Shown here piece by piece: positions 48,978-50,041 of a DNA stretch of 64,000 nucleotides (position 1 is the first letter of the stretch; each line of letters opens with the position of its first letter). Where the stretch lies: assembly GCA_017458585.1 (NCBI GenBank), contig JAFTAJ010000037.1, positions 62,001 through 126,000 on the forward strand, read 5' to 3'. The position numbers and the translations under genes were made by a program. This DNA is from Bacteroidaceae bacterium. Lineage in GTDB: Bacteria > Bacteroidota > Bacteroidia > Bacteroidales > Bacteroidaceae. A model generated the notes under the pieces. That model did not search any database and was not told the DNA's origin. It saw only the letters and a list, made by a program, of their open reading frames with translations.

Positions 48978-49262
48978 CTAAATTTGCAAATAGCTTTTTA
49001 GTGCTTCGACGTATGCCTCGAAGGCTTGCTGTCCAGCAGGAGTGATGCGACAAATAGTGCATGGACGCTTGCCCTTGAAGGTTTTCTCCACTTCAATATA
49101 GCCAGCAGCGGAGAGTTTGTCGATCTGCACACTCAAATTGCCTGCTGTGGCTCCAGTCTGCTCCTTGATGAAAGGAAACTCGGCCTCGTCAGTGCTGATG
49201 AGCAAAGACATTATTGCCAGGCGAAGCTCGGAATGCAGCAGAGGGTCTAATGGCTTGAACAT
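48978..49262 (-). CDS. Winged-helix transcriptional regulator
   Basis: 94 residues with a MarR/ArsR-like winged helix: LHSELRLAIMSLLISTDEAE, the recognition part TGATAGNLSVQIDKLSAAGY and a wing ending CRITPAGQQAFEAYV. It belongs to the small regulators often encoded beside a membrane protein. It is second in the operon after the 208-residue membrane protein (12-base gap). The perfect palindrome in that operon's promoter is a good candidate for its own binding site. Confidence 0.85.
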   Translation of the reverse strand: MFKPLDPLLHSELRLAIMSLLISTDEAEFPFIKEQTGATAGNLSVQIDKLSAAGYIEVEKTFKGKRPCTICRITPAGQQAFEAYVEALKSYLQI

Positions 49263-49274
49263 ATATGCACCTCC

Positions 49275-49901
49275 TTATTTCTTATTTTGTAGATAGATGA
49301 CGAGGCCGGGAACAATAAGTCCTATTATGGCAACACCCGCCATGACGAAGAGTTGTTCAGCACCGAGGAAGTGCAGGGCGCAGAAGAAACCTCCGATACC
49401 AGCAATGATGCCACAGACTTTGATTATGTTGTTCCGAAGAACGAAGCCCATAATGGTGGAACCCATACCAAAGCAGAGAGAGATAATGCTTGTGATAATG
49501 CCAAAGACATAAACTTGTGGCATCACAATTTCTACAGGTAATAGGCCGCTGCCAATAAATCCAAAGATTATCCCGATGAAACCACAGAAAATACCGAAAG
49601 ATCCCCATATATGGCCGATGGTACGACCTACAAAGGTGGAAGGTACGGGTTTCCTCTTGTTGAGGATGATTCTTTCACCTACATAACCGACGAACCACAT
49701 TACAAACCATAGGACATTCCATATGGGGCCGCCGTGGTTTTTCCATAAGTAGGCAATCAGTAAAGAGAATATGGTTACGCAAGCACCCCACCAAATCAGG
49801 GGGATGGCCGAGTTTCTCGTGATGGTGCGTTGGCTCTGCTCTATAGAATCGCGAATAATTTCAAGACTGCGCTCGGCAGTCATGTTCTTGTCTTTCTCCA
49901 T
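49275..49901 (-). CDS. Multi-pass membrane protein paired with the regulator
   Basis: 208 residues. A charged N-terminal helix (AERSLEIIRDSIEQSQRTI) is followed by about six membrane segments rich in Gly and Ile (FGIFCGFIGIIFGFIGSGLL and later ones) and a short basic tail. I do not recognise a transport or enzymatic motif. It is first in the operon, under the promoter at 50010-50041. Its likely job is to act with, or be controlled by, the adjacent winged-helix protein; the link is by position only. Confidence 0.75.
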   Translation of the reverse strand: MEKDKNMTAERSLEIIRDSIEQSQRTITRNSAIPLIWWGACVTIFSLLIAYLWKNHGGPIWNVLWFVMWFVGYVGERIILNKRKPVPSTFVGRTIGHIWGSFGIFCGFIGIIFGFIGSGLLPVEIVMPQVYVFGIITSIISLCFGMGSTIMGFVLRNNIIKVCGIIAGIGGFFCALHFLGAEQLFVMAGVAIIGLIVPGLVIYLQNKK

Positions 49902-50009
49902 TGTTGTTCTTTTTTTGAAGGTTTAGAATTTGTAGTTTTTGCTCTCTAGCGTCTATTCCTGCCCCCTGCAGAAAGGTCGGAATTGACACTTTTCATCCGG
50001 ATTGCGATG

Positions 50010-50041
50010 CAAAAGTAAATAAGTTTATAATATAAACCAAA
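50010..50041 (-). promoter_or_regulatory. Promoter with a perfect operator palindrome between its boxes
   Basis: On the minus strand TTTG (50038-50041), 20 bases, then TACTTTTG (50010-50017). The spacer holds GTTTATAATATAAAC (50023-50037), a 7-1-7 perfect palindrome that directly touches the -33 box. A second inverted pair, TAAGTTT (50020-50026) and AAACTTA (50039-50045), overlaps it. A dimer bound here would block polymerase. Confidence 0.8.

Follow-up and report, generated by a model that had tools for sequence, protein, structure and literature searches.

The perfect palindrome that fills most of a promoter spacer in this Bacteroidaceae genome is very probably the operator of the 94-amino-acid PF13601 protein encoded in the same operon, which would restrain its own expression by steric occlusion of the promoter. 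Negative autoregulation of this kind had been the original prediction, and it is supported by the conservation of the site, by the linkage of the site to the regulator gene, and by one instance in which a changed recognition helix is accompanied by a changed half-site. These features, together with the position of the site within the promoter, are seen in the sequence; binding by a regulator dimer, and repression as the sign of the control, are what we infer.

The geometry of the promoter can be described to the base. Within the window, that is, the whole stretch of 64,000 nucleotides that was analysed, GTTTATAATATAAAC at positions 50023-50037 is a perfect 7-1-7 palindrome, read directly from the sequence and just as had been claimed for it. 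On the minus strand the order is a TTTG -33 box (50041-50038), the predicted operator GTTTATATTATAAAC (50037-50023), the bases TTATT (50022-50018), and the -7 box TACTTTTG (50017-50010), the boxes being those of the Bacteroides primary sigma factor consensus, with TTTG at -33 and TAnnTTTG at -7 (PMC7366714). The palindrome therefore adjoins the -33 box, as previously stated, and occupies 15 of the 20 bases of the spacer, but the description of it as lying exactly between the boxes fails on the other side, where it stops 5 bp short of the -7 box. A DUF3109 gene lies on one side of the promoter and on the other is the two-gene operon, whose earlier description as encoding a membrane protein (49275-49901) and a small winged-helix protein (48978-49262), both on the minus strand, holds.

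A spacer of 20 bp is normal for this genome, since the distance from TTTG to TAnnTTTG(C/T) shows a local peak at 19 and 20 bp across 463 kb of it, and repression is favoured because the site sits in a spacer of normal length. A regulator that binds here and activates, or that acts both ways by bending the DNA between the boxes like MerR-type proteins, would account for the location of the site in the spacer and for its linkage to the regulator gene. MerR-type activation, however, requires an over-long promoter spacer, whereas the spacer here, examined for exactly this property, has the genome's usual length; both promoter boxes are near consensus, and the winged helix of the protein is of the MarR/PadR type, not MerR. 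Activation is consequently an unlikely reading.

Taken by itself, a bare 7-1-7 palindrome is not unusual, and it is conservation that is decisive. Chance statistics computed on the 463 kb of this genome gave 51 bare 7-1-7 palindromes, with nine in the window, and first-order Markov shuffles gave 22-34. AT-rich spacers, moreover, yield palindromes more readily than average DNA, a point that was counted against the operator reading. The exact palindrome is single-copy both in the window and in the 2.4 Mb genome.

For the assessment of conservation, orthologues of the regulator were gathered in the genus and the family, and the sequence preceding the membrane gene was examined. Across 63 distinct aligned orthologous promoters, the palindrome arms GTTTAT and ATAAAC carry 1.5-2.0 bits per column, while the two central columns carry 0.8-0.9 bits and the DNA farther upstream mostly less. 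Given that the arms are conserved and the centre is free, the functional unit is best read from the alignment as GTTTAT-NNN-ATAAAC, with near-invariant arms. Whether the site presents itself as 7-1-7 or 6-3-6 varies between species with the centre, the window holding the 7-1-7 variant and GTTTATAAAATAAAC being the 6-3-6 variant. Likewise, among 80 named loci of rumen and gut Prevotellaceae, which were fetched by their regulator and partly overlap the 63-promoter set, 76 show the site, with no more than two mismatches, together with a correctly spaced -7 box. A lack of the palindrome before close orthologues had been named beforehand as grounds for refutation, and the comparison went the other way: almost all orthologous promoters have it at the equivalent position, and it is found again in other families of Bacteroidales and before paralogues.

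In 22 distinct loci a second copy of the palindrome lies downstream of the first, at a distance of 79-82 bp in 18 of them. These double-site loci, among them L009, L010, L072, L106, L123-L126 and L136, are mostly of the Bacteroides type, although L009 and L010 belong to the genus of this genome. Around the second copies in the double-site loci examined there was no recognisable promoter spacer, and the palindrome would therefore seem to be kept as a predicted protein site rather than as a part of the promoter. The fixed distance of 79-82 bp suggests that two bound dimers might cooperate. These observations bear on the alternative that the palindrome is an AT-rich spacer element, symmetrical only by accident, that helps the promoter through flexibility or an extended -33 contact. 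The abundance of bare 7-1-7 palindromes and the AT-richness of TTTGG and of the spacer speak for such an element, but it is highly improbable in light of an exact motif that is restricted to this operon, has near-invariant arms around a free centre, is not found in unrelated promoters, and has second copies that lie outside promoters. Further, only one of the 22 promoter-like spacers in the 463 kb, this one, contains a palindrome with arms of at least 6.

The distribution of the site across genomes ties it to the regulator gene. A scan of 399 family genomes for the pattern TTGGTTTAYANWRTAAAS was combined with a search for the regulator, and motif and regulator were found together in 117 genomes, the motif only in 1, the regulator only in 54, and neither in 227. 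Put differently, 117 of the 118 motif-bearing genomes also encode a PF13601 regulator (Fisher p 4e-57, a value that overstates independence given that the genomes are related). Within this family scan, 120 of 127 motif sites are followed by the regulator gene at a distance of no more than 4.5 kb, and the arrangement of site upstream of regulator recurs in 25 genomes from other families of the order Bacteroidales. Despite how common bare 7-1-7 palindromes are, a chance palindrome is rejected by this co-occurrence and by conservation. When 31 upstream regions of regulators without the exact pattern were examined, 22 had the core with 0-2 mismatches, one more (L191) had a two-mismatch form with slightly different spacing, and the remainder were accounted for by contig ends, one damaged gene, or distant homologues. 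A recognisable site was not found in the upstream DNA examined for the homologues L205, L206 and L208, which counts against the operator reading.

The site stays at the operon start even in longer operons with intervening DUF2141 and OMP_b-brl_3 genes. In four such loci (L121, L122, L123 and L125), DUF2141 and the OMP_b-brl_3 outer-membrane barrel stand under the same operator, ahead of the membrane gene. Linkage between a site and a gene does not in itself prove which protein binds, and the palindrome might in principle belong to another, unlinked regulator that controls the operon, perhaps merely travelling with it. The probability of this is small, given that genomes lacking a PF13601 gene almost never have the site (1 of 228), that the site follows the PF13601 gene into operons of differing content and to paralogues, and that in one case a different recognition helix goes with a different half-site.

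The paralogues are informative in this respect. There are exactly two PF13601 genes in this genome, and the second protein, which is 45% identical to the first, is likewise paired with a membrane protein. The promoter of its operon contains GTTTAGAAAATAAAC, that is, GTTTA-N5-TAAAC directly before the -7 box, and the promoter of a paralogue in genome G007 contains GTTTAAAAAATAAAC, again with GTTTA-N5-TAAAC before the -7 box. A search of the genome for further sites found the exact site only here and the looser version before one paralogous operon. GTTTA-N5-TAAAC has five exact sites in this genome, of which only two resemble spacer operators, both before PF13601 operons; of the remaining three, one is in a leader that precedes a gene start, one follows a -7 box, and one falls between ribosomal protein genes, and a larger regulon was rejected on these grounds. 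Second sites in two genomes of genus g2 (L133 and L134; G019:C17 and G048:C7) were similarly discounted as regulon members, as they repeat the promoter together with the beginning of the membrane gene. These copies, identical in operator-promoter and membrane-gene start, lie among acetyltransferase genes and represent a partial duplication. A palindrome near the paralogue L207 is downstream of the regulator gene and was left out of the count.

In regulators having the site, the recognition helix is near-invariant, TAGNLSVQ[ILV]DKL. A divergent homologue, L199, has the helix TGGNLGAQIIKL instead of TAGNLSVQIDKL, and the usual site is not present; in the promoter of its operon, a 20-bp spacer holds the palindrome TTCTATATCATAGAA at the equivalent position (-7 box at 2289, reverse complement). 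Altered helix and altered palindrome together make L199 a possible natural specificity switch, in a single case. Because sites precede the paralogues, and because helix and half-site change together in this one case, the regulator itself is the predicted binder.

The regulator (48978-49262, minus strand; 94 amino acids; recognition helix TAGNLSVQIDKL) is a predicted autorepressor of the PF13601 (HTH_34) family, matching the profile at 115.9 bits against a gathering cut-off of 27 and over positions 1-80 of 80. Its AlphaFold model (pLDDT 95) combines a winged helix with a long helix at the C-terminus, and the earlier identification of a small winged-helix protein in the operon is borne out by profile and model alike. 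The nearest solved structure is PH1061 of Pyrococcus horikoshii (1ub9), both by fold (TM 0.85) and by sequence (E 5e-5), although it is archaeal and only 29% identical in the structural alignment. The next-nearest folds are MarR/PadR-type proteins, several of them solved on their operators. With autorepressors of that type (the PadR-operator complex 5x11 and the MftR-operator complex 8ylg) the system here shares the winged-helix fold and a palindromic, in this instance predicted, operator at the promoter, but by Pfam the 94-amino-acid protein falls in PF13601 and not in the PadR or MarR families. Nothing relevant on PF13601, HTH_34 or PH1061 was found in the library of literature searched. We know of no operator for PH1061.

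Taken together, the mechanism that we favour is one in which the two GTTTAT half-sites are most likely occupied by a regulator dimer, which would then lie across the promoter spacer and deny RNA polymerase access to the promoter. The operon would repress itself until a signal releases the regulator. Speculatively, and from gene order only, that signal would most likely come from, or be relayed by, the membrane protein, which might for instance tether the regulator at the membrane. This protein (49275-49901, minus strand) has 208 amino acids, a conserved N-terminal SLEIIxxxI, and a predicted helical bundle; it matched no Pfam family above its cut-off, and a fold search against the PDB gave no meaningful match. 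Among orthologues it falls to 20-30% identity where the regulator keeps 85-90%, and conservation is highest around the N-terminal SLEIIxxxI and in the last helix, with the rest drifting. A conserved N-terminal segment in a fast-changing membrane protein would suit contact with the regulator.

A precedent for such a pairing is SdpR/SdpI of Bacillus subtilis, in which the autorepressor of a two-gene operon is sequestered by its membrane partner (PMC1626106). The likeness lies in a small, here predicted, autorepressor that is co-encoded with a multi-pass membrane protein in a two-gene operon; sequestration, reported for SdpI in B. subtilis, is only a guess for the membrane protein described here. 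When SdpI-family membership was examined, none of 21 members gave a Pfam SdpI match and the fold search of the PDB was likewise negative; unlike in the B. subtilis system, no toxin gene was seen here. SdpR is an ArsR-type protein, whereas the present regulator belongs to PF13601.

The transcript of the operon may carry a further layer of control. Positions 49941-50009 (minus strand) encode a conserved, structured 5' UTR leader RNA with an outer stem, an inner stem, and the hairpin CUUUCUGCAGG(A/G)G. An alignment of 37 leaders yields a single stem-loop, in which the CUGCAG loop is invariant and the hairpin reads CUUUCUGCAGGAG, and 10 of 12 base pairs show changes on both sides, with a covariation score of 0.47 as compared with 0.20 for shuffles and about 0.1 for slid controls. 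An RNA model of the leader has 78 matches in the 80 named loci, and the 74 distinct leader rows from these loci covary again, in an alignment that was fitted to the model and in sets that overlap. The leader is single-copy in this genome, and all of the strong matches examined in relatives sit at this operon. A search of Rfam with the leader gave no match to a curated family or riboswitch. One genome with a leader but no regulator match (G001) was set aside, as its contig ends inside the membrane gene and the regulator gene is simply unassembled. Leaders of the Bacteroides type differ: a hairpin and then a T run lie between the two operators, in the manner of an intrinsic terminator, and these terminator-like hairpins have only a moderate folding advantage over shuffles. 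In the Prevotella relatives, regulation through the RNA, on top of the operator, is therefore likely.

More broadly, operator and leader might form a previously undescribed two-layer module, in which a PF13601 autorepressor shared across the order, with its membrane partner as signal receptor, would be supplemented by a lineage-specific leader RNA that adds attenuation or translational control of the fast-evolving membrane protein. In that module the leader would be the CUGCAG loop in rumen and gut Prevotella relatives and the terminator-like hairpin, with operators about 80 bp apart, in Bacteroides-type loci. This extension is tentative and, on the whole, doubtful.

The type of circuit is already known; what is new, within the library searched, is this member of it, with its operator consensus, its spread across the order, and its leader RNA. 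PF13601 regulators are widespread, and few operators have been identified in Bacteroidota. In the present case the predicted operator, the promoter, the regulator, and the target can be defined to the base and are conserved across Bacteroidales, and the predicted circuit would be present in many gut bacteria. Finally, the covarying leader RNA offers another way, independent of the operator, into the study of this uncharacterised membrane protein.
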